From Paeniglutamicibacter sp. Y32M11 (GTDB lineage Bacteria > Actinomycetota > Actinomycetes > Actinomycetales > Micrococcaceae), in assembly GCF_019285735.1 (NCBI RefSeq), contig NZ_CP079107.1, positions 1,798,001 to 1,862,000 on the forward strand: a stretch of 64,000 nucleotides of DNA, given 5' to 3'. The stretch's first letter is position 1. The number at the start of each line of letters is the position of its first letter. The notes under the pieces are model-generated. The model ran no database searches. It saw nothing but the letters and a program-made list of their open reading frames with translations, and was not told the DNA's origin. Shown piece after piece: positions 15,436 to 43,756 of the stretch. Both the position numbers and the translations under genes were made by a program.

Positions 15436-15849
15436 ATGAGCGCCCATGAACATTCCATCAACATGATCAAGACTGCCGCCCTCGCCGCGGCAGAAAAGCA
15501 GGCAGAGAACCTGGTTGCACTTGACGTTTCCGAACGCCTTGGTGTCACCGACGCCTTCCTGATCGCTTCGGCTGCCTCCGAGCGCCAGGTCAACTCCATC
15601 GTCGATGAGATCGAAGATGAAATTGATGCCAAGTTCGACGTGCGCCCGGTACGTCGCGAAGGCCGCGGCCAGGGCCGCTGGGTTCTGCTGGACTACTCGG
15701 ATGTTGTCATCCACGTTCAGCACAACGAAGACCGCGTCTTCTACGCTCTTGAGCGCCTCTGGGGCGACTGCCCGGTCATCGAATTGCCGACCACCGGCGA
15801 GCCGGCCACCGATATGTCGCACATCGAAACGCTTCCCGACGTCCTTTAA
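15436..15849 (+). CDS. rsfS: Ribosomal silencing factor RsfS
   Basis: 137 aa. RsfS binds uL14 on the 50S subunit and blocks subunit joining when nutrients are low. NLVALDVSERLGVTDAFLIA, SIVDEIEDEI, GRWVLLDYSDVVIHVQH and FYALERLWGDCPVIEL follow the family pattern throughout. CAAGGAG lies 9 nt before the ATG. Its position after nadD is conserved across bacteria. Confidence 0.95.
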   Translation: MSAHEHSINMIKTAALAAAEKQAENLVALDVSERLGVTDAFLIASAASERQVNSIVDEIEDEIDAKFDVRPVRREGRGQGRWVLLDYSDVVIHVQHNEDRVFYALERLWGDCPVIELPTTGEPATDMSHIETLPDVL

Positions 15850-15860
15850 CACCCTTCGAT

Positions 15861-15890
15861 TTGCACCACACGTTTTGTGTGGCCTATGAT
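15861..15890 (+). promoter_or_regulatory. Promoter of tRNA-Ala
   Basis: TTGCAC (15861-15866), an 18-nt spacer and TATGAT (15885-15890) give a near-consensus housekeeping promoter about 30 nt before the tRNA. The spacer contains an inverted repeat, CCACAC-GTTTT-GTGTGG (15866-15882), which may also act as a weak end for rsfS. Confidence 0.65.
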
Positions 15891-15922
15891 GGTTGAGTTG
15901 CCCGAAAGGGCGGCTCTCATTT

Positions 15923-15998
15923 GGGGGTATGGCGCAGTTGGTAGCGCGTCTGCATGGCATGCAGAAGGTCAGGGGTTCGAATCCCCTTACCTCCACCA
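15923..15998 (+). tRNA. tRNA-Ala (anticodon GGC)
   Basis: Cloverleaf read by eye: acceptor GGGGGTA with TACCTCC (one G-U), a D arm containing GCGCAGTTGGTAGCGC, anticodon stem TCTGC/GCAGA around loop ATGGCAT (anticodon GGC, decoding GCC and GCU), and T arm AGGGGTTCGAATCCCCT. The discriminator is A at 15995 and CCA is encoded (15996-15998). A promoter lies ~30 nt upstream and a hairpin terminator ~20 nt downstream. Confidence 0.95.
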
Positions 15999-16017
15999 AA
16001 ATTAAGAATATAGCTTA

Positions 16018-16050
16018 GGTCTCCGACTCCGGTCGGGGGCCTTTGCTGTT
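16018..16050 (+). terminator. Terminator after tRNA-Ala
   Basis: GGTCTCCGAC (16018-16027) pairs with GTCGGGGGCC (16032-16041, two wobble pairs) around a short loop, followed by TTTGCTGTTT. Confidence 0.75.
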
Positions 16051-16246
16051 TCCGCACGCAGAACCGCAATTGGGGCCCATCCGGGCTCTGGGTTATTCCC
16101 CTGACTCGCCAATATGCCCTCGAAGAACGTCAGCGACCGTAGCTGAATGCCGACAAGTCGAGATGGTCGGTTTGCGGATATTTCGTTGCTTTCGGAATCT
16201 CGAAGCTGGCATCGCTGTTGCCGTCACCTTCCGACAATGCCTGAAA

Positions 16247-16312
16247 CTTGTATGGATTGATACAAGCTCTAAACATTGTGCAGAATGATACAAGGCTGTA
16301 GTTTTGTATCAT
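16247..16312 (+). promoter_or_regulatory. Two-dyad operator over a leaderless promoter (satD-like gene)
   Basis: Dyad 1 is CTTGTAT-N6-ATACAAG (16247-16266). Dyad 2 is ATGATACAA-N10-TTGTATCAT (16285-16312) with perfect 9-bp arms; its last two bases are the start of the ATG. The dyad centres are 42 bp apart, about four helix turns. A possible -35 TTGTGC (16276-16281), 17-nt spacer and -10 TAGTTT (16299-16304) put transcription start at the ATG (16311), so a protein on dyad 2 would cover the promoter. The downstream protein has a C-terminal helix-turn-helix and is a candidate for binding here. Confidence 0.65.
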
Positions 16313-16916
16313 GATTGTCATCACCATTGATCAACGCAAGTCTCGCTCGGGGCCGGACAAGGTTGAATCCTTACTGAGTCGGCTAGCTAGCGACTACGAC
16401 GCGACGCGAGGTTTTGAAAGAACCGCGGGTGATGAGATTCAAGGGGTATTCGAGGACGGAACCGTCGCCGTCTTGTTGGCCCTTGACGTTGCACATACCG
16501 GGGAATGGAGTGTGGGAATCGGAGTCGGTTCCGTGCAAATTCCGCTGCCTCGGGAAACCCGTGCAGGGAGAGGCCCAGCCTTCGAATTTGCCCGCGATGC
16601 GGTCGAACGGGCAAAAAATACCAGTGGCTCCTTGGCGCTCTCTGGCCCCGGAAACGAAGCCGAACGGCTCGAGGCCGAATTGCAAATTCTCGCGTTGGTC
16701 AATGCGCGGCGGACCGAATCGTCGGCCGAAGCTGGCATATTGGTATCCAAGGGGCTGACTCAGCGGCAAGTCGCCGCCACCCTTGAGATCTCACAACAGG
16801 CCGTCTCGGCGCGCCTAGCCTCGGGCCTTTGGTACGAGGCCGCTAGGCTCGCGGACGTAGCGGGACGGGCATTGGACAGCTATTCGATGACAATGGACGA
16901 AGGGGGGCCTGCATGA
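16311..16916 (+). CDS. SatD-like protein with C-terminal helix-turn-helix
   Basis: 201 aa. The N-terminus (MIVITIDQRKSR, then GDEIQGVF around residue 43) resembles the SatD family, first named in Streptococcus and often next to a membrane gene. An HTH is seen near residues 146-175 (LTQRQVAATLEISQQAVSAR). No ribosome binding site precedes the ATG, and an operator-like dyad overlaps it, suggesting leaderless transcription and autoregulation. The stop overlaps the next ATG by 4 bp (ATGA). The family role is poorly known; phage or stress sensing is a guess. Confidence 0.7.
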   Translation: MIVITIDQRKSRSGPDKVESLLSRLASDYDATRGFERTAGDEIQGVFEDGTVAVLLALDVAHTGEWSVGIGVGSVQIPLPRETRAGRGPAFEFARDAVERAKNTSGSLALSGPGNEAERLEAELQILALVNARRTESSAEAGILVSKGLTQRQVAATLEISQQAVSARLASGLWYEAARLADVAGRALDSYSMTMDEGGPA

Positions 16917-17464
16917 ACTGGATTGCCTGGGTACTGCTGATACTTGTCATTCCCCTGGGCGCCCCACGTTACTTTGCCGATTCCGGCCTACGCTGGCCAC
17001 TCAAGCAGTCGACCACCAGCTACCTGCTTGTCTCCGTGCTGGCGCTGGCCGGGATCGCCGCGGCTATCGGTAGCCACCTTCCCGCTGCAGCTTCGATCCC
17101 GCATGAGCTGGTGATCGTGGCTAGTGTTGCCGCGGCAACACTAGGTGGAGGGCCCGTCACCGAGACGGTGTTCAGGCTTGCGGCATTCAAAGGTAAATTA
17201 GGGGCGCCCAATGCTTCAGAGGATGAGGGGCCGAGTCCGCTGCGTGGAGGAATGTGGATCGGGCTGCTGGAGCGTGCTGCTATAGCTTCGACGCTCTGGG
17301 CCTCATGGCCCGAGGGGCTAGCGGTGGTCCTTGCGGTCAAGGGGCTCGGTCGATTCTCGGAACTGAAGCAACATGCCGCCGCCGAGCAATTCATCCTGGG
17401 GACGTTTGTCAGTGTCTTGTGGGCTTGTGCAGCTGTCGGCGTCGGCAGAGTCATCGGTTTCTAG
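16913..17464 (+). CDS. Multi-pass membrane protein paired with SatD-like protein
   Basis: 183 aa with about five hydrophobic helices: 1-20, 38-60, 67-90, 118-150 and 157-183. GLLERAAIASTLWASWPEGLAVVLAVKGLGRF and EQFILGTFVSVLWACAAVGVG resemble the membrane half of proteins that accompany SatD-like genes (the DUF3307 neighbourhood in other bacteria). The Glu in LLER and the KGLGRF loop look conserved rather than random. It overlaps the SatD-like stop by 4 bp, so the two are translated together and probably act together. Confidence 0.6.
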   Translation: MNWIAWVLLILVIPLGAPRYFADSGLRWPLKQSTTSYLLVSVLALAGIAAAIGSHLPAAASIPHELVIVASVAAATLGGGPVTETVFRLAAFKGKLGAPNASEDEGPSPLRGGMWIGLLERAAIASTLWASWPEGLAVVLAVKGLGRFSELKQHAAAEQFILGTFVSVLWACAAVGVGRVIGF

Positions 17465-17680
17465 CCCACCGGTTGGTAATCCGTGGCCGCAGCGTGTGGA
17501 ATCTCTATGAATCATGACTGGCATTTAGCATCCTGTTCTCGTTCCCACTCTTTACCGGCCAAGCCGCGCTCCTGAACTGGGTTGTCGATGCGGTACCTGC
17601 ACGGTCTTGTTTTAGACCCATAGGAGACCCGAATCTGGGGCCCGACGGCGTTCCGGCCTCAGAGGGTAGACCCAACCCAC

Positions 17681-17686
17681 TAGAAT
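17681..17686 (+). promoter_or_regulatory. Candidate -10 box, leaderless YjdM-like gene
   Basis: TAGAAT is exactly 7 nt before the ATG at 17694, with no ribosome binding site between. No clear -35 is present. Confidence 0.5.
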
Positions 17687-17693
17687 GAGGCCT

Positions 17694-18044
17694 ATGAGTG
17701 ACGTTCTGCCATCGTGCCCCCAGTGTTCAAGCCCCTATACATACGAAATGGGTGCCTTGCTGGTGTGCCCCGAGTGCGCCCATGAGTGGTCCGCTGAAGC
17801 GGATGTCGTGGAGGAGCCACAGGAAAAAGTCATCAAGGATTCGGTTGGTAAGGTCCTGAACGACGGCGACACCGTCACCATCGTGAAAGACCTGAAGGTC
17901 AAGGGGCAAGCCCAGTCCATCAAGGTCGGCACCAAGGTACGCAACATCCGCCTGGTCAACGGCACCGATGGTCACGATATTGACTGCAAGGTAGATGGCT
18001 TTGGTCCCATGCAGCTGAAGTCTTCGGTCGTCAAAAAGGTCTAA
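17694..18044 (+). CDS. YjdM/PhnA-like zinc ribbon protein
   Basis: 116 aa. An N-terminal zinc ribbon (CPQC at residues 8-11 and CPEC around 25-28) is followed by a small beta-rich domain ([20 protein letters not shown] ... [20 protein letters not shown]). This is the YjdM family, historically labelled PhnA (alkylphosphonate utilisation); most members are not phosphonoacetate hydrolases and the function is unknown. It stands alone here with no phosphonate genes nearby. The start at 17694 is supported by a TAGAAT box 7 nt upstream. Confidence 0.85.
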
Positions 18045-18068
18045 CAAACTACCTTCTGCATTAGCTAT

Positions 18069-18110
18069 GCGCCGCCCTTCCCCAACACGGAGGGGTGGCG
18101 CTTTCTTTTT
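18069..18110 (+). terminator. Rho-independent terminator after YjdM-like gene
   Basis: GCGCC and CCCTTCC pair with GGAGGG and TGGCGC across a short loop, followed by TTTCTTTTT. Confidence 0.75.
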
Positions 18111-18307
18111 GCCTTGGGACCTTCGACGGAGTTGATCGCCATCCCTGCTCTATTAAGATTTTGGCGGTGGTCAAAATGATCAATCGCCGTGTTTCTACGA
18201 TGAGGACGGGAACTAATGACGATTCCCCCTGAATTGAAGCTCCTGCCCATCAGCACACGCGTATTCTGATGAAAGGGGGGCACCGAAGTTGGACACGAGG
18301 AGCCGTC

Positions 18308-19432
18308 ATGGAAAATCAAACGTTCGACTTCTCAACGATCATCGTGGGCGCTGGCCAATGTGGATTGGCGATGGCTCACGAATTGGTGAAGCGGGGCGAA
18401 GATTTTCTCGTGCTTGAGGCAGGCCCGGCTCCTGGGAACTCGTGGCGTTCGCGTTGGGATTCTTTGGAACTGTTCACTCCCGCGGCTCATGATGCGTTAC
18501 CTGGCAGCAAGTTCCCGGATAATCGAAGTTCCTACCCGACCGCAGGGGCTGTGGCGGATTATCTGGAAACCTACGCGAAGGCTAAGGGCGTCCCCGTTCG
18601 GACCTCAACAACCGTCACCGATGTGCGGATTAGCACCGACGGTGGTTTCTTGGTTCGGACAGCAGATGGAGCGTTCACGGCCCGTCGGGTAGTTGTTGCG
18701 ACGGGCGTTCACCAACGTCCCAAAATTCCAGCGCTAGCGGCGCAAATCTCCGCCGAGACGAGGCAGCTGCATTCGAGCGAGTATCGGAATCCTGCCATGG
18801 TTGCCGATGGTCCGGTTGCCGTGGTCGGTTTCGGAACATCTGGTGCCCAAATTGCCTGTGAATTGGTTGTCAGTCACCCGGTGGCCCTCTGTGGAAACCC
18901 CACGCCTCATGTACCAAGAACTCTCATCCGCTTTGCACCAGCGCTCTATTGGCTGCTGGTCCACAGGATGCTGACTCGCTCGACGCCCATGGGTCGCAAA
19001 GTCGCCGCGGGATTCTTTACCCGAGGTGCGCCGCTCATCCGAGTCTCGGTCAAGGACGTTCAAACGGCCGGAGTACAGACGGCTGGGCGAGTGGAATCAA
19101 TACACGGTGGGAAGCTGACGACGAAGGACGGCACCCCCATCGAGGCATCCACCATCATTTGGGCTACCGGGTATCGCCCAGACTATTCGTGGATTGATGG
19201 ACTGCGGCTTGATGAGCTCGGCTACCCACTGCATCGCCGGGGGAACAGCACGCAGATTCCTGGGCTCGGATTCCTCGGGATTCCTTTTCTCTACGGGTTA
19301 ACGTCCGGAATTATCGGGGGAGTAGGTCGAGATTCTCGCTACCTGGCTCGTCATTTGCATCCGTACAAGGAAGCTGGGTCCGCTGCGGACACACCGTTTG
19401 GTTTGAACACGAGTGCAGGGGATCACGAGTAG
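18308..19432 (+). CDS. Flavin-containing monooxygenase-like NAD(P)/FAD oxidoreductase
   Basis: 374 aa. FAD-binding GAGQCGLA (residues 15-22) at the N-terminus, a substrate/FAD loop WRSRWDSLELFTP, a second dinucleotide fold VAVVGFGTSGAQIA near residue 174, and a late ATG-type motif (IWATGYRPDYSW). This is the CzcO / group B flavoprotein monooxygenase type, using NADPH and O2. The substrate cannot be read. ATG at 18308 follows CGAGGAG; an upstream in-frame ATG (18269) has a weaker context. It stands alone between an unrelated gene and yggS. Confidence 0.85.
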   Translation: MENQTFDFSTIIVGAGQCGLAMAHELVKRGEDFLVLEAGPAPGNSWRSRWDSLELFTPAAHDALPGSKFPDNRSSYPTAGAVADYLETYAKAKGVPVRTSTTVTDVRISTDGGFLVRTADGAFTARRVVVATGVHQRPKIPALAAQISAETRQLHSSEYRNPAMVADGPVAVVGFGTSGAQIACELVVSHPVALCGNPTPHVPRTLIRFAPALYWLLVHRMLTRSTPMGRKVAAGFFTRGAPLIRVSVKDVQTAGVQTAGRVESIHGGKLTTKDGTPIEASTIIWATGYRPDYSWIDGLRLDELGYPLHRRGNSTQIPGLGFLGIPFLYGLTSGIIGGVGRDSRYLARHLHPYKEAGSAADTPFGLNTSAGDHE

Positions 19433-19534
19433 GCAGCGGCCCCGACATGCTAAGTTGGCCGTGGCGCGCGGTCTTTCGAAAGCGATCGGCTCGCGCCTTC
19501 GAAGTTCCTATTCGTGAAAGATTCTTACCCCGCC

Positions 19535-20299
19535 ATGACACTTCCGTTGAACGCTTCCAGCCCGGCCGCCACGCACGCCAACTCCACAGAGGATTTTGCG
19601 CGAAACCTTGCTTCCATCAAGACTCGCATCGATGTTGCCGCCCGAAAGGCCGGGCGTGACCCCGCTTCGATTCGGCTGTTGCCGGTCAGCAAGACAGTGC
19701 CGGAAGATCGCCTCCGTTTGGCGATCGCAGCGGGGATGGATTTCCTCGGAGAAAATAAAGTCCAAGAGGTTGCTCGTAAGGCAGAACTTCTTGCCGACAT
19801 TCCTGGTCTGAAGTTCTCGGTTATCGGAAGCTTACAAACGAACAAGGCGAAGTACGTGGCGAAATTTGCCGACGAATTTCAGGCCCTTGAAAACGTTCGC
19901 CAAGCAGCCGCCCTTCAGAACCGTCTTGAGATCGAAGATCGTCAGCTAGATGTCTTCGTTCAGGTCAATACGTCCGATGAGGATAGCAAGTCGGGGCTCG
20001 CTCCGGCCGACGTGCAGGCATTTGTCGAGGAGCTCCCGCAATTCGACCGACTCCACGTTAAGGGCCTGATGACCTTGGCACTGTTCAGCGATGACAAGGA
20101 TGCGGTGCGAGCATGCTTCGTGCGCCTTCGGGAGCTGCGCGACATGCTGCGCGATAGCGCTCCGGCAGGAATGCATATCGAGGAACTCTCCATGGGCATG
20201 AGTGGTGACTTCGAGCTTGCCATTGAGGAAGGCTCGACGGTGGTTCGCGTGGGCCAGGGCATTTTTGGCGCCCGCGAACTTCCAATCATCAATAATTGA
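19535..20299 (+). CDS. YggS/PLPBP family pyridoxal phosphate homeostasis protein
   Basis: 254 aa from ATG 19535 (a GTG at 19514 is in frame). Members bind PLP through a lysine, here in RLLPVSKTVPEDRLR, and buffer free PLP rather than catalyse a reaction. FLGENKVQEV, FSVIGSLQTNKAKYV, LDVFVQVNTSDEDSKSGL, LMTLALF and LSMGMSGDFELAIEEGSTVV are the expected family blocks, so the protein is complete. It normally lies in the cell-division cluster; here it is isolated. A clean terminator follows. Confidence 0.93.
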   Translation: MTLPLNASSPAATHANSTEDFARNLASIKTRIDVAARKAGRDPASIRLLPVSKTVPEDRLRLAIAAGMDFLGENKVQEVARKAELLADIPGLKFSVIGSLQTNKAKYVAKFADEFQALENVRQAAALQNRLEIEDRQLDVFVQVNTSDEDSKSGLAPADVQAFVEELPQFDRLHVKGLMTLALFSDDKDAVRACFVRLRELRDMLRDSAPAGMHIEELSMGMSGDFELAIEEGSTVVRVGQGIFGARELPIINN

Positions 20300-20306
20300 C
20301 TCGGAG

Positions 20307-20330
20307 GCCCCTCGGATAACACCGAGGGGC
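20307..20330 (+). terminator. Terminator hairpin after yggS-type gene
   Basis: A perfect 9-bp stem GCCCCTCGG (20307-20315) with CCGAGGGGC (20322-20330), loop ATAACA. No T run follows, so strength is uncertain. Confidence 0.6.
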
Positions 20331-20654
20331 AATGGCCTTGCGGCCAAACGCAATATCAGTGACTTGCGGCTCCACATCGAGGGGATAAGCGACGTGCCAA
20401 CCGTGCTTCGTCCATCGGCACGGCCATAGCTGTATCCGTGCGGGGAACAGTTCTCGTCCCAGGGCAAATTTGTCAAATGACCCCATTTCGCCATTTGCTA
20501 CGACCTTGTGCGGGAAAGTGCCGAATCGGGAACTGTCCGACCCCACCAGTAGTGTTTCCCTAGGAGTTGCCGAACCACATCTAGTGGTTGGCGCCAATTC
20601 CATCGACACGCCGTGCTCAACGACACGCCAGATCTTTAAACGCCGCCCGAACGC

Positions 20655-20672
20655 TCCACAGGTTGTGGATAG
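20655..20672. promoter_or_regulatory. Inverted pair of DnaA-box-like sites
   Basis: TCCACA-GGT-TGTGGA is a perfect dyad, and TGTGGATAG (20664-20672) is a DnaA box on the minus strand with one mismatch to the TTATCCACA consensus. Confidence 0.5.
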
Positions 20673-20714
20673 ATTTTCGAATTTACCGGATTCGCGGGGT
20701 TTAAAGAGGGACTG

Positions 20715-20723
20715 TTATCCACA
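20715..20723 (+). promoter_or_regulatory. Consensus DnaA box
   Basis: TTATCCACA matches the 9-mer DnaA consensus exactly and lies 281 bp before nrdH. A further partial match, TGTGGACGA, follows at 20729-20737. Enterobacterial nrd operons are controlled by DnaA, so a similar link is plausible. Confidence 0.6.
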
Positions 20724-20795
20724 AGGGGTGTGGACGAGTGGGAAGTTAAACCACAAGGGTGTAATACATCATGTTGGGGTCTACCTCCCCATTGC

Positions 20796-20811
20796 CTACT
20801 AGATGTAGTAT
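20796..20811. promoter_or_regulatory. Candidate NrdR box
   Basis: CTACTAGATGTAGTAT contains ACTA-N4-TAGT and agrees with about 12 of 16 positions of the NrdR consensus acaCwAtATaTwGtgt. NrdR boxes usually come in pairs 21 or 31-32 bp apart; I found no good second copy at those distances (a weaker one is centred 35 bp upstream), so this is tentative. Confidence 0.35.
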
Positions 20812-20995
20812 TGAATCAGCTGGTGAGACCTAGTGCTCCAACTCCTTGAATGGGGAAATAAGTACGATCTCCACCTCTTTTAGGCATCATGGCTAACGAG
20901 AAAAATCAGTTCATGTGCTTTCCCCGGATTCGGGGGCGGGCATAGGGAGCCAGCACCAACACATACAAAGTTTTTGCACGAGGGGATCAACGGAA

Positions 20996-21241
20996 ATGAC
21001 CGTCACGGTTTACACGAAGCCAGCATGCGTTCAGTGCAACGCGACCTACCGAGCTCTTGATAAAAAGGGCATCGTCTACCAAAGCGTAGACATCTCGCAG
21101 GATCCGGCTGCTTTGGAGCGTGTGCGCGCCCTGGGGTACATGCAGGCACCGGTTGTTATCACCGACGCCGATCACTGGTCGGGGTTCCGCCCAGACAAGA
21201 TTGAAGAACTGGCCCTGGCCCAGAGCGCATCCGTCGCCTAA
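20996..21241 (+). CDS. nrdH: Glutaredoxin-like NrdH
   Basis: 81 aa. The redox pair C11/C14 (CVQC) sits in VTVYTKPACVQCNATYRALD. NrdH is reduced by thioredoxin reductase and supplies electrons to the class Ib ribonucleotide reductase encoded downstream. SGFRPDKIEEL is the usual C-terminal motif. I start at ATG 20996 with AGGGG upstream; the open frame further 5' is not conserved. It begins the nrdHIEF operon. Confidence 0.96.
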   Translation: MTVTVYTKPACVQCNATYRALDKKGIVYQSVDISQDPAALERVRALGYMQAPVVITDADHWSGFRPDKIEELALAQSASVA

Positions 21242-21289
21242 CCAGCCACCAGAAGCCTTCACGATTCTAGTAATTTAGAGGCGATCGCA

Positions 21290-21772
21290 ATGCCCACTTC
21301 AGCGTTGGCAAGATCACGGGTGCACGACAACGCCATTGCGGCGGAAGTGCACACCAAGAATAATTTGATCTACTTCTCTTCGGCTTCCGGGTATACCCAC
21401 CGCTTTGCAGAGAAGCTGGATCTGGAATGCGCGCGCATTCCGTTGAAGAGCCATGAACCTCATCTCGTGGCCGACGAACCATTTGTGCTATTGCTTCCGA
21501 CCTATGGAGGCGAAAAAGGCGAACGTTCCATCCCGCCACAGGTCGTCAAGTTTCTCAATGACGCGCGCAACCGGCATCTGATAGCAGGCGTTATCGGCGC
21601 CGGAAACACAAACTTTGGAACGGCATACTGCTTAGCTGCACGCAAGATCGCGGCTAAATGCAACGTTCCGCTTCTGTATAAATTTGAATTGATGGGCACA
21701 CCAGAAGATGTGACCCGCGTTCACCAAGGATTGGAAGTCTTTTGGACACGAAAGTCGCAGAACCTGAAATGA
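21290..21772 (+). CDS. nrdI: Flavodoxin-like NrdI
   Basis: 160 aa. NrdI binds FMN and generates the oxidant that activates the Mn2-tyrosyl cofactor of NrdF. The phosphate loop is [43 protein letters not shown] and [14 protein letters not shown] are standard blocks. The first ~25 residues ([19 protein letters not shown]) extend beyond most homologues, so the true start could lie further in. The stop overlaps the presumed nrdE ATG by 4 bp. Confidence 0.94.
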
Positions 21773-23910
21773 AGCAAAACGCCAAAGAAATGCCGGCAGC
21801 TTTTCAGGGACTGGGTTATCACGAACTGAACGCCATGCTGAACCTGTACGGGGCAGATGGTCGTATCCAGTTCGAGGCCGACCGCGCCGCAGCCAACCAG
21901 TACTTCCTGGAACACGTGAACAACAACACCGTGTTCTTCCATGACTTGGATGAGAAGCTCGAGTACCTGGTCAAGCATGAGTACTACGAGCGCGAGACGC
22001 TCGATCAGTACACCATGAACTTCATTCGCGATCTCTACCGCGGTGCCTACGCCAAGAAGTTCCGCTTTGAGACTTTCTTGGGCGCCTTCAAGTTCTACAC
22101 CTCGTACACCTTGAAGACCTTTGACGGCAAGCGTTACCTCGAACGCTACGAAGACCGTGTCTGCATGGTTGCCTTGCACTTGGCTCGTGGCAACGAAGAG
22201 ATGGCAGTCTCCCTAGTCGACGAGATCATTGAGGGCCGCTTCCAGCCGGCCACCCCCACGTTCCTCAACGCTGGCAAGGCCCAGCGTGGCGAGCTCGTTT
22301 CCTGCTTCTTGCTTCGTATCGAAGACAACATGGAATCGATCTCCCGTGGCATCAACTCCTCGCTGCAGCTTTCCAAGCGCGGCGGCGGCGTCGCACTTTC
22401 GCTGACCAACGTCCGCGAACACGGTGCTCCGATCAAGCAGATCGAGAACCAGTCCTCGGGCGTCATCCCCGTGATGAAGCTTCTCGAAGACAGCTTCTCC
22501 TACGCCAACCAGCTCGGCGCACGCCAGGGTGCCGGTGCCGTGTACCTGAACGCCCACCACCCGGACATCCTGCGGTTCTTGGACACCAAGCGTGAAAACG
22601 CTGATGAGAAGATCCGCATCAAGACCCTTTCCCTGGGCGTTGTCGTTCCGGATATCACCTTCGACTTGGCGCGCAAGAACGAGGACATGTACCTCTTCTC
22701 GCCGTACGACGTCCAGAAGGTCTACGGAGTTCCTTTCAGCGACATCTTCGTCTCGGAAAAGTACTACGAAATGGTCGACGATGCTCGCATCAAGAAGACC
22801 AAGATCAACGCGCGTGAATTCTTCCAGACTCTGGCAGAGATCCAGTTCGAATCCGGTTACCCGTACATCATGTTCGAGGACACCGTAAACCGAGCCAACC
22901 CCATCAAGGGCAAGATCTCGATGAGCAACTTGTGCTCGGAGATCCTCCAGGTGTCGACCGCTTCGGAATACAACGAGGACCTGAGCTACCAGACCGTGGG
23001 CAAGGACATCTCTTGCAACCTCGGCTCGATGAACATCGCCAAGGCGATGGACGGCAAGAACCTTGGTGCCTCGATCGAAACCGCCATCCGTGCGCTCTCG
23101 GCCGTCTCGGACATGTCGTACATCAACTCCGTTCCTTCGATTGCCCAGGGCAACGCGAAGACTCACGCCATTGGCTTGGGACAGATGAACCTCCACGGTT
23201 TCCTGGCTCGCGAGCGTATCCACTACGGTTCGGAAGAAGGGTTGGACTTCACCAACATCTACTTCTACACCGTCGTGTTCCACGCGCTGAGCGCCTCGAA
23301 CAAGTTGGCCATCGAAACCGGAACGTCCTTCGACGGGTTTGCCGATTCGAAGTACGCCTCGGGCGAGTACTTCGAGAAGTACACCGATCAGGAATGGGTT
23401 CCGGCCACCGAGCGTGTGCGTGAACTCTTCGCCGGCATCGACATCCCGACTCAGGACGACTGGCGTGCGCTGAAGGCCTCGGTCATGGAGCACGGCATCT
23501 ACAACCAGAACCTGCAGGCAGTCCCGCCAACCGGCTCGATTTCCTACATCAACAACTCGACCTCCTCCATCCACCCGGTGGCTGCGAAGATCGAGATCCG
23601 CAAGGAAGGCAAGATCGGACGGGTTTATTACCCGGCCCCGTACCTGACCAACGACAACCTGGAGTTCTACCAGGATGCGTATGAAATTGGTTACGAAAAG
23701 GTCATTGACACCTATGCGGTTGCCACCCAGCACGTGGATCAGGGCCTGTCCCTGACGCTGTTCTTCAAGGACACCGCCACCACGCGTGACATCAACAAGG
23801 CGCAGATCTACGCATGGCGCAAGGGCATCAAGACGCTCTACTACATCCGCCTGCGCCAGATGGCACTTGAGGGAACCGAAGTCGAAGGTTGCGTTTCCTG
23901 CGCACTCTAA
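21769..23910 (+). CDS. nrdE: Class Ib ribonucleotide reductase alpha subunit
   Basis: 713 aa from ATG 21769, which overlaps the nrdI stop as ATGA; a TTG at 21742 would add nine residues. The enzyme reduces NDPs to dNDPs. Core motifs are present: [15 protein letters not shown] (active-site Cys), [40 protein letters not shown], and the C-terminal shuttle pair CVSCAL that is re-reduced by NrdH. No N-terminal ATP cone of the NrdA type, as expected for NrdE. nrdF follows after a long perfect hairpin. Confidence 0.97.
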
Positions 23911-23960
23911 GCGCTGCCGATTCACCACAGGTTGCAAGGTAGCGATACCCTAGCAACCGA

Positions 23961-24000
23961 GTACGTACGACGACGGGTGTGAACCCGTCGTCGTACGTAC
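23961..24000. other. Perfect 18-bp hairpin between nrdE and nrdF
   Basis: GTACGTACGACGACGGGT (23961-23978) pairs perfectly with 23983-24000 around GTGA, a GNRA-type tetraloop. No T run follows (ACCCGCTTT). It may stabilise the nrdHIE message, attenuate read-through, or be a processing site. Confidence 0.85.
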
Positions 24001-24022
24001 ACCCGCTTTAACCAAAACTTGA

Positions 24023-25018
<996 letters not shown>

Positions 25019-25043
25019 GTCCTGATCTAACGACTTCTGCCCA

Positions 25044-25088
25044 AGGGCGTCAGCATCCCACCACGGGAAGCTGGCGCCCTTTGCTGTT
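25044..25088 (+). terminator. Terminator after nrdF
   Basis: AGGGCGTCAGC (25044-25054) pairs with GCTGGCGCCCT (25070-25080, one wobble) and is followed by TTGCTGTTG. Confidence 0.75.
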
Positions 25089-25130
25089 GCCAGCTACCGG
25101 GTTGAACCATTGCCACGACGATGGCAATAT

Positions 25131-25535
25131 CTACGCGTCCAAGTCCGCTACGCTGGTAGCCGCATAATTCGGAGTGAGCGCGGAAAACGCGCACAGCCAG
25201 CCGGACGAGCGACGAATGAAGGTTTCTGTCACCCATTCATCGGCGGTGAACGGGACGCCGCGCCAGCTGCCCTGATTGGTGCCATGGGCCAGGACCACCG
25301 CCACGTCACCATAGACACGCGCCTCAAGGACCTCAAAGGCCATTTCGGAGTGGCTCAGCTGTCCAGATTCGACCGCCGCCAAGAAATCGGCCCGTTTCCC
25401 AGGGCCTCCTTCCGGCGTGACCATGACCCAGTCCGGCTCGGCGAATGACCCGATAAGCGGTGCATCGTTGGCCACGATCGCTTTGGCCCACCGATCGAGA
25501 AGATCTTGGAATGATGTGAGGCTATCAGTTTCCAT
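25131..25535 (-). CDS. SnoaL/NTF2-like (DUF4440-type) protein
   Basis: 134 aa. FQDLLDRWAKAIVANDAPLI at the start, DWVMVTPEGG, and the beta sheet VYGDVAVVLAHGTNQGSW ... WVTETFIRRSSGWLCAFSALT form a cone-shaped NTF2-like fold of the DUF4440 type. Such proteins may be small enzymes, dimer partners or ligand binders; no catalytic residues can be assigned. It is convergent with nrdF and lies downstream of the XRE-cupin regulator on the same strand (gap about 50 bp), so it may be co-transcribed with it. Confidence 0.75.
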   Translation of the reverse strand: METDSLTSFQDLLDRWAKAIVANDAPLIGSFAEPDWVMVTPEGGPGKRADFLAAVESGQLSHSEMAFEVLEARVYGDVAVVLAHGTNQGSWRGVPFTADEWVTETFIRRSSGWLCAFSALTPNYAATSVADLDA

Positions 25536-41304: not shown

Positions 41305-42060
41305 ATGTGTGGACGATATGTGATGGCCAAGGCAATCGGGGATCTGGTGGCCGAGGCGGAAGCCGAAGCCGATGCAAACCTTGAACTGCGCCAATCCTGG
41401 AATGTTGCCCCGACCACCGACGTGCCGATCGTGCTCGAGCGGCTTGTCGAAGGTGAAGTCCACCGGCAGGTGCATGTTGCCAAGTGGGGGCTGGTACCGG
41501 GATGGGCCAAGGACCCGGCCGTGGGGGTGCGTGCCTTTAACGCCCGCAGCGAGACGGTCATCGAAAAGCCGACCTTCCGCGCCGCGGTAAAGGCCCGGCG
41601 TTGCGCCGTTCCCGCCGAGGGATATTACGAATGGTTGGCCGGAGACACCCCCAAGGCCAAGAAGCGCCCGTTCTATGTTCACCCGGCCGATGAATCGTTG
41701 ATCTTCTTCGCCGGACTCTACGAATGGTGGAAGGATCCGTCCAAGGACGACGGAGATCCGGGGCAATGGCTGCTCTCCACCTCGATCCTCACGTGCCCGT
41801 CACCAGCTGCGGATTCCGAATCGCCGGTCCTGCGGGAACTGCACGGGCTGCATGACCGGTTACCGATCCCGCTGGCCAAGGACTCCATGGACGAATGGCT
41901 GGACCCGGAAAATAAGAATGCCGCCGAACTGGTGGACAGGGTGCGCTCAGGTGCCTTCGACGTTGCGTCCATGTGGGCCCTGCGCGAGGTCGATGCGGCG
42001 GTGGGCAATGTGCGTAATGACGGACCCGAGCTCATCGAGGAACACTCGGGGCTGTTCTAG
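41305..42060 (+). CDS. SRAP (HMCES/YedK) abasic-site DNA-crosslinking protein
   Basis: 251 aa. MCGRYVMAK: Cys2 forms the thiazolidine crosslink with abasic sites after Met removal. WNVAPTTDVPIVL, WGLVPGWAKD, FNARSETVIEKPTFR, RRCAVPAEGYYEW and the later H in LHDRLPIPLA are the core motifs. It protects abasic sites in single-stranded DNA. The gene is divergent from mrx1 and convergent with the exonuclease VII-like gene; the two stops overlap by 4 bp. Confidence 0.93.
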   Translation: MCGRYVMAKAIGDLVAEAEAEADANLELRQSWNVAPTTDVPIVLERLVEGEVHRQVHVAKWGLVPGWAKDPAVGVRAFNARSETVIEKPTFRAAVKARRCAVPAEGYYEWLAGDTPKAKKRPFYVHPADESLIFFAGLYEWWKDPSKDDGDPGQWLLSTSILTCPSPAADSESPVLRELHGLHDRLPIPLAKDSMDEWLDPENKNAAELVDRVRSGAFDVASMWALREVDAAVGNVRNDGPELIEEHSGLF

Positions 42061-43499
42061 GAATCGGTGGCTTCGGGACCGGCCGGACGGTGCCGCTGAA
42101 GTTTTCGTAGGCGGTGGACGGTTCGGACAGTCATTATCGCAGCCATCCATTCAGCTGTCGTGGGTGGGACCCGCAGTGGTCTTGCCGCAGGAGACTTGAT
42201 CTTCTGGCGAGCTAGCTCGAGTCTCCATGTGATGAACCAAGCCGCAAGGATTGCCGTGCAGCGTGTGACCAGAAGCGCACGAAATGATGGTTCCATTCCG
42301 AAGAATTCTAGAAATCCACTAGCCCCAAAGAATATGGCAACTGCCAAAACTACGGCAACGGCGGTGGCCAGTCGGGAGTATCCGCGGACTCGTCGCCTGG
42401 CCATGTCTAGTAGCGTTTGAATGTGACGCTTCTCCTGCTCCGTTGCGCTCCTCTGTAATGTTCCGATGGTCTTATTGGCTTCGGCGATATTGGTTTGGAG
42501 ATCAGCGATTAGCCGCGAGTCTTGGCGCTGAGTGTTCTGTGTTTGCGCAGCCTTTCGTTCATCGCGGGCCTTGTAGGCCTGGGACTTCTGAGCTCTGAAA
42601 GTCGCAGTGATGGCTGCTGCAACGGCACTGGGAGTGATGTACGAAGCTACAGCTGCCCGGTCTGCCAGCGAAACGTCTTCGGCATGGCCTACCGCGGTTA
42701 CCACCGGCACGTCAGCATTCATGATGAGGTCGGCAAGCTCCCGGCTTTCGAAGGCCTGCATCCCGGCCCAATGACCGCCGCCACGGACAAGGACAATCAG
42801 TCCATGGCCTTTGTGTTTTGCTGTCCGAATGAGTTGGCCGAAATGCGCGAGCGCGCCATCATGATGCCAGTTGATGCTTTGGTAGTCGATGGTACGGGGC
42901 CTGTTGTTTTTGCCTTTCATTTCGAACCGCACGTCGTTCTTTCCTTGGGAACGCTCCGGCGCGATGACCATTATGCTCTTGAGCTTGTCGGCGGGAACGG
43001 GAACACCTTGCTCGGAGTTCTGATGGACTTTCCAAGGTTTAAGGACCGCGCGAGGATTGCTCGGATAGCTTGCGGAAAAATCATCCAATCTCTGTATCGC
43101 TTCACAGTACAACTTGCCCGTCTGGCTAAACTCAGGACGGATGCGCGAAACATTAAACTTCAGCGAATTTCCCCACATGGAGGTTTCGCCCTGCACCTTC
43201 AAGCTCATACCGTCGACCACTGCCGCGGCTAGTTCTGAGCCTTGAGAAATAAGGTATCTATCAATATTGCTCGCGTCAGATTCCCAAATTCGGCAGGGGA
43301 CGATGAATATCTCTTCGCCCTGCCCGCGGCGCGATTCCTTGGTAACCAAGTCGAAATTCCACACGTTTTTAGCGCTTTTCCAGGCGTCTTTACACTCGCC
43401 GGTCACCCAGTACTGCTGTTTGGAGCAAGCATCCTCAATCTTTTGGCTGAGGGCTCCTGCAGAGATGGTTTCTATCCTGGAGCTTGATGAACGATTCAT
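42057..43499 (-). CDS. Membrane-anchored exonuclease VII large-subunit (XseA) homologue
   Basis: 480 aa. N-terminal OB fold at 10-120 (YWVTGECKDAWKSAKNVWNF). Catalytic domain ~170-300 with RGGG (239-242), GHAED (271-275; GHETD in E. coli) and TPSA (289-292). A coiled coil (301-370) follows, then two membrane helices (377-397, 406-426) and a basic tail. Standard XseA has no such helices. No xseB is adjacent. The local GC is lower than in neighbours (26 of 60 at 42301-42360). GAGAGG lies 8 nt before ATG 43499; an ATG at 43529 lacks a site. Possibly a defence or membrane-associated DNA-degrading system; untested. Confidence 0.8.
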   Translation of the reverse strand: MNRSSSSRIETISAGALSQKIEDACSKQQYWVTGECKDAWKSAKNVWNFDLVTKESRRGQGEEIFIVPCRIWESDASNIDRYLISQGSELAAAVVDGMSLKVQGETSMWGNSLKFNVSRIRPEFSQTGKLYCEAIQRLDDFSASYPSNPRAVLKPWKVHQNSEQGVPVPADKLKSIMVIAPERSQGKNDVRFEMKGKNNRPRTIDYQSINWHHDGALAHFGQLIRTAKHKGHGLIVLVRGGGHWAGMQAFESRELADLIMNADVPVVTAVGHAEDVSLADRAAVASYITPSAVAAAITATFRAQKSQAYKARDERKAAQTQNTQRQDSRLIADLQTNIAEANKTIGTLQRSATEQEKRHIQTLLDMARRRVRGYSRLATAVAVVLAVAIFFGASGFLEFFGMEPSFRALLVTRCTAILAAWFITWRLELARQKIKSPAARPLRVPPTTAEWMAAIMTVRTVHRLRKLQRHRPAGPEATDS

Positions 43500-43756
43500 T
43501 GACGGGCCCTCTCGCCGGTTAACAGACATTGTTGGTTGCGAGTGTCCGATTGAGGCTAGCGCCCAGACCCGTCAATTTGAAATTCATGAACCAGTCGACC
43601 ATACGTACGAATGTGGCCAACACGCAGCAGCTGCAGCGAGATCGTTGGGTCCCGTTAGATGTCATAACATGTCGGTTCGTTATCGCGGCGAATACCGCAC
43701 CGCAGGATACGGATGGGGTTTGCCCGTATCGGTCGATCCGACCGCCCGGCGGCACA

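Follow-up and report, generated by a model that had tools for sequence, protein, structure and literature searches.

The 480-residue protein encoded beside the SRAP gene of the window (the whole 64-kb stretch of DNA analysed here) is, judging from its sequence, an orphan paralogue of the exonuclease VII large subunit, XseA. This enzyme is ancient and common among bacteria; it is regarded as a soluble nuclease of two subunits, with the canonical activity of a metal-independent, ssDNA-specific exonuclease. The window protein shares with XseA (PF02601, TIGR00237, structure 8txr) the order of OB and catalytic domains, the RGGG and GHxxD motifs and a TPSA/TPTA-like motif, but no xseB adjoins its gene, and a predicted membrane hairpin and a basic tail stand in place of the canonical C-terminal part. 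It is apparently an undescribed architecture of a known family, since the titles and beginnings of abstracts seen for part of the literature matches held no description of a membrane-anchored, XseB-less XseA-type protein. Such a lineage offers a testable case for the roles of the coiled coil and XseB, and also for a membrane-side ssDNA barrier, a kind missing from the PADLOC catalogue.

The features of the locus are collected in Table 1. The 480-a.a. reading frame begins at ATG 43499, and an in-frame ATG further upstream, at 43529, would give 490 a.a. We preferred the shorter start because a GAGAGGG-like ribosome-binding site precedes it and a comparable stretch lies before the start in the four relatives from the same genus.

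Table 1 Features of the nuclease locus, in window positions.
Feature	Position	Strand	Basis
Orphan homologue of the exonuclease VII large subunit, 480 a.a., with a predicted membrane anchor	42057..43499	(-)	Pfam, profile alignment
OB-fold region, residues about 10-125	43125..43472	(-)	Profile alignment to canonical-type XseA; PF13742 below cut-off
Exonuclease VII catalytic domain, residues 171-300	42600..42989	(-)	PF02601; alignment to 8txr
D189, facing E. coli XseA D155	42933..42935	(-)	Alignment
RGGG 239-242, R239 facing E. coli R205	42774..42785	(-)	Alignment
GHAED 271-275; H272 and D275 facing E. coli 238 and D241	42675..42689	(-)	Alignment
Coiled-coil-like segment, residues 301-365	42405..42599	(-)	Call of the first-pass annotation and place in XseA
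Membrane helix 1 (379-397), predicted	42309..42365	(-)	Kyte-Doolittle
Membrane helix 2 (406-424), predicted	42228..42284	(-)	Kyte-Doolittle
Basic C-terminal tail, family motif W...VRT..RLR.LQR	42060..42227	(-)	Alignment
SRAP (SOS-response-associated peptidase) gene, convergent, 4-bp overlap with nuclease gene	41305..42060	(+)	Pfam

The homology to XseA, proposed earlier from the letters of the DNA, was borne out by three comparisons. PF02601 (Exonuc_VII_L) matched residues 174-371 (E 2.4e-22; 80.3 bits against a curated cut-off of 35.9), and the cut-off was also exceeded at the homologous places in all 11 other carriers described below. An hhalign comparison with 13 canonical-type XseA proteins (99.9%, E 1.5e-37) was colinear over residues 16-305, across the OB and catalytic domains, confirming that the two follow one another as in XseA. 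The family profile covered residues 6-342 of the E. coli XseA structure 8txr (E 2.9e-31), and all four positions facing E. coli D155, R205, H238 and D241, which we take to be the catalytic residues, are intact (D189, R239, H272 and D275). The 8txr chain itself has alanine at position 238, which would fit a catalytic mutant. The RGGG, GHAED and TPSA motifs lie where the first-pass annotation had placed them, the last at residues 289-292.

The likeness ends before the C-terminus. The PF02601 match stops at profile position 214 of 315 and the hhalign match at 277 of 426, indicating that the canonical C-terminal part of XseA is missing from the 480-a.a. protein. The scores for TIGR00237 (xseA; 97.4 bits) and for the OB domain PF13742 (17.6 bits) fall under the 180-bit equivalog cut-off and the 27-bit cut-off, respectively. 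As far as profiles can tell, the protein is thus a member of the PF02601 superfamily and not of the canonical two-subunit exonuclease VII.

In the region that replaces the canonical C-terminus, the Kyte-Doolittle maxima over 19 residues were 2.32 (379-397) and 1.47 (406-424), so that the second helix of the window protein is weak on this scale. The charges flanking the two segments (+4, loop −2, +3) are consistent with a predicted in-out-in hairpin with both ends in the cytoplasm. We compared the 14 aligned family proteins (the window protein and 13 homologues) with 47 canonical-type controls, namely XseA-like proteins drawn from the searches of the family and of the phylum, without an adjacent xseB confirmed for each; a control that was too short (L055) and a second record of the same gene as L051 (L021) were left out. 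A segment reaching 1.6 past the catalytic domain was found in 13 of the 14 family proteins, the exception (L049) peaking at 1.22, and in 0 of the 47 controls, whose highest value was 1.38. This difference rules out that the helices are an artefact of prediction. Two segments of at least 1.6 were present in 6 of the 14. Each of the aligned proteins starts with an OB region and a catalytic domain; a stretch that varies between members comes next, then the hydrophobic helices and finally a basic tail. The tail ends in a W...RTPRRLR-like motif, which some of the proteins match only loosely, and the architecture is kept down to 17-26% identity. The helices and tail foreign to XseA, as originally described, therefore recur in the 13 homologues.

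Two kinds of protein resemble this one in part. In SLATT-type conflict effectors, a membrane module of two helices is joined to a protein related to nucleotides or nucleic acids, and the likeness to them (Pfam SLATT_1) is one of layout alone; membership was ruled out, as the best result was a sub-threshold SLATT_1 match in 1 of the 14 members (E 0.22). XseA-like proteins also occur in phage and plasmid records, namely PHROG 9454, the Microvirga plasmid pMVF16-5 and the Moraxella phage Mcat6. The latter two have no adjacent xseB annotated, the phage record being unannotated there, and, unlike the window protein, they have no strongly hydrophobic segment. The Mcat6 protein is an XseA-like ORF (L040, 5812-7362) that is itself unannotated in the record.

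We then asked where XseA and XseB are encoded in the carriers. In the source genome, a single contig of 4.17 Mb, a separate canonical xseA lies about 0.88 Mb away, and the only xseB match of the genome adjoins it. In each of the 11 other carriers, likewise, a single xseB match exceeds the cut-off and adjoins a strong match to canonical xseA (199-218 bits), while the homologues of the window gene (57-105 bits) are located elsewhere without xseB. The absence of an adjacent XseB, noted initially for the window alone, thus extends to 12/12 carriers, which argues against genes always paired with XseB at housekeeping loci. The presence of canonical xseA and xseB in all 12 also means that the housekeeping job is covered. 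A recent duplication of the host xseA was ruled out, since the window protein did not group with the host xseA in a catalytic-domain tree. Support for the deep branches of this tree is low (36-48) and L051 is placed beside the canonical group; the tree is therefore no proof that the family is one clade.

The gene is patchily distributed. A protein search of 295 genomes of the same family gave some match in 258, mostly canonical xseA, and a homologue with the hairpin architecture in 12: the source, four of its genus (72, 54, 48 and 48% identity to the window protein) and seven of other genera. One carrier from another genus (G069), whose score falls among those of canonical proteins, was recognised by its layout; the count may therefore lack other weak carriers. 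An anchor profile built from the same 12 carriers found no further strong carrier in 290 family genomes, with nine weak matches (E 5e-5 to 8e-4), and in a class search it matched the source genome alone (1/394 at E 1e-6). The whole-family profile returned mostly canonical-type XseA from the phylum, and among the matches listed only that of the source genome passed position 408 of 489. A search of genome contigs with the single protein found none, and three pattern scans of viral contigs found no relative. Outside the family, full-length copies are carried by five large Rhodococcus plasmids and partial copies by two more.

Conservation within the alignment bears on whether the members cut DNA. 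The GH of GHxxD is present in 14/14 members, the RGGG arginine in 13/14 and the aspartate at D189 in 13/14 (glutamate in one), whereas the aspartate at the D275 position is replaced by histidine or asparagine in 4/14; not all members need therefore be nucleases. These replacements, including the one RGGG arginine, would suit a membrane-bound derivative of XseA that has no catalytic activity and binds ssDNA or acts as a scaffold. We consider this improbable, given the near-complete conservation of the other positions and the four intact ones in the window protein.

The SRAP gene is the neighbour that invites a functional link, since SRAP binds abasic sites in ssDNA. The nuclease could accordingly be an accessory DNA-repair enzyme of the cell that trims damaged ssDNA near the membrane, working with SRAP. 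In all five carriers of the genus the nuclease gene is convergent with SRAP and overlaps its end, and one Rhodococcus plasmid has a different SRAP gene 2.5 kb off. However, the two genes are convergent and form no operon, and SRAP occurs in 15/15 genus genomes whereas the nuclease gene occurs in 5/15, which rules out SRAP as an obligate partner. No SRAP is annotated nearby on three other Rhodococcus plasmids (four of the five being covered, with an incomplete gene table), and a search for an SOS-box-like site near the nuclease gene found none. SRAP is probably a conserved neighbour, not a partner, and we regard the repair role as unlikely.

The same site records part of the history of the gene. 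The closest sampled relative, G074 (SRAP 96%), lacks the gene, and its last 63 bp remain beside SRAP at 89% identity; because of this scar, G074 most likely lost it. In three other non-carriers (G050, G126 and G141), SRAP is directly followed by the block found beyond the gene in G111. The scar and the direct junctions indicate that the gene behaves as a one-gene presence/absence unit. They account for 4 of the 10 non-carriers in the genus; the sequence following SRAP in the remaining six is different or too short for a judgement.

The composition of the gene had been taken as foreign, on the basis of GC counts of 26/60 within it and 41/60 in SRAP. Both counts are exact, but they are chosen extremes: over its whole length the nuclease gene has 54.8% GC, against 62.7% for SRAP and 61.3% for the window, and 28 of 1252 segments of equal length (step 50) have a GC content no higher than that of the gene. 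The lower GC thus stands, although the deviation is moderate, and recent import would be too simple an account of a gene that has one fixed site in the genus and was most likely lost from at least one relative. GC is also low in a second and longer part of the window, 15501-25500 (56.9% against 61.3%), where five ORFs produced a single weak PADLOC match (C3a186, E 1.3e-5).

We compared the rate of change of the gene with those of its neighbours. Between the window and G190, dN and dS were 0.18 and 0.63 for the nuclease, 0.07 and 0.85 for SRAP and 0.02 and 0.38 for ADH2. The nuclease gene is therefore under purifying selection on average, with much faster protein evolution than its neighbours, and the coiled-coil-like segment is the least conserved part of the protein within the genus. 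Between the window and G156, synonymous change was saturated in the OB and catalytic parts (SRAP 0.76, ADH2 0.51), whereas the anchor was less diverged (dS 1.27, dN 0.18). At synonymous sites the anchor differed less than the remainder of the gene in two of six pairs (p 0.009 and 0.002; the pairs are not independent); the other four showed no such difference, and the trend between the window and G190 was opposite. Because the direct test was significant in 2/6 pairs, mosaic allele exchange by recombination in the gene is suggestive only. That the gene is a decaying duplicate of the host xseA with a chance hydrophobic end is very improbable: the scar standing alone in one relative and the two partial plasmid copies are what decay might leave, but the frame is intact, dN is below dS, the architecture persists at the low identities given above, and the tree shows no grouping with the host xseA.

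Our preferred reading, held tentatively and at somewhat less than even confidence, is that the protein is an ssDNA nuclease tethered to the membrane and directed against foreign DNA. We favour it because exonuclease VII is already present in the carriers, because the additional gene is patchy, partly plasmid-borne and fast-evolving, and because an ssDNA-specific activity at the membrane would suit DNA that enters by conjugation or transformation. In this reading the OB and catalytic domains would face the cytoplasm, and the protein would work without XseB, perhaps oligomerising through its coiled-coil-like stretch, and degrade ssDNA at the inner face of the membrane. Its targets could be such entering DNA, or phage DNA during replication or processing, which would be single-stranded near the membrane, and it might act as a one-gene barrier or as an abortive system. 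A more specific version, which we put forward as a fainter possibility, is a one-gene system of Micrococcaceae and Rhodococcus plasmids, in which an XseB-free exonuclease VII, held by its hairpin at the cytoplasmic face of the membrane, would destroy incoming plasmid or phage ssDNA, its nuclease and coiled-coil part diversifying and its anchor being under tighter constraint. Relaxed constraint, acting on an accessory gene, could likewise account for the patchiness and fast evolution.

Comparison with catalogued defence systems did not strengthen the role in defence suggested initially. No PADLOC model matched the 14 members convincingly (best E 0.026). Among 20 window proteins including the nearest neighbours, three matches reached E <=0.001, all weak (regulator-type Csa3 twice, E 1e-5; desaturase-type C3a186, 1.3e-5), and no defence island was seen. 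The scattered and variable presence of the gene among genomes is a hint of such a role, not a proof.

The plasmid-borne copies raise the alternative of a plasmid or mobile-element gene, serving entry exclusion, plasmid competition or the processing of the element's own single strands, that settled in chromosomes as well. Besides these copies, a 436-a.a. ORF with a weak HTH match directly precedes the nuclease gene on both Rhodococcus plasmids checked (L035 and L036, 8519-9829), where it is absent from the gene table, and the helix-free orphan XseA of the Microvirga plasmid (L039, 9500-11008) lies near repA and repC. In the Micrococcaceae loci, by contrast, the neighbours, some of which were identified by Pfam, included no recognised transposase, integrase or replication gene, and we judge this origin to be about as unlikely as a role in repair. 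One of the partial copies, on the Rhodococcus plasmid pLP1 (L134, 4001-4666), comprises the first 197 a.a. and lies near an IS110 transposase and an SMI1/KNR4-family gene.

Across the loci read, no recurring partner gene was found. The identified contexts outside the window are mostly housekeeping, the gene adjoining pnp in three other genera (one by Pfam, two by matching N-terminal sequence) and a helicase gene in one. One homologue from another genus (G008) lies about 4 kb from an mREase_IV-type (type IV restriction-like) gene, and of the loci read this is the only one with a restriction-type gene close by. Near the homologue from another genus, L046 (11559-16896) encodes an SNase-domain protein and a PLD-helicase-DUF3427 protein, the latter matching a type IV restriction model with 715 bits.
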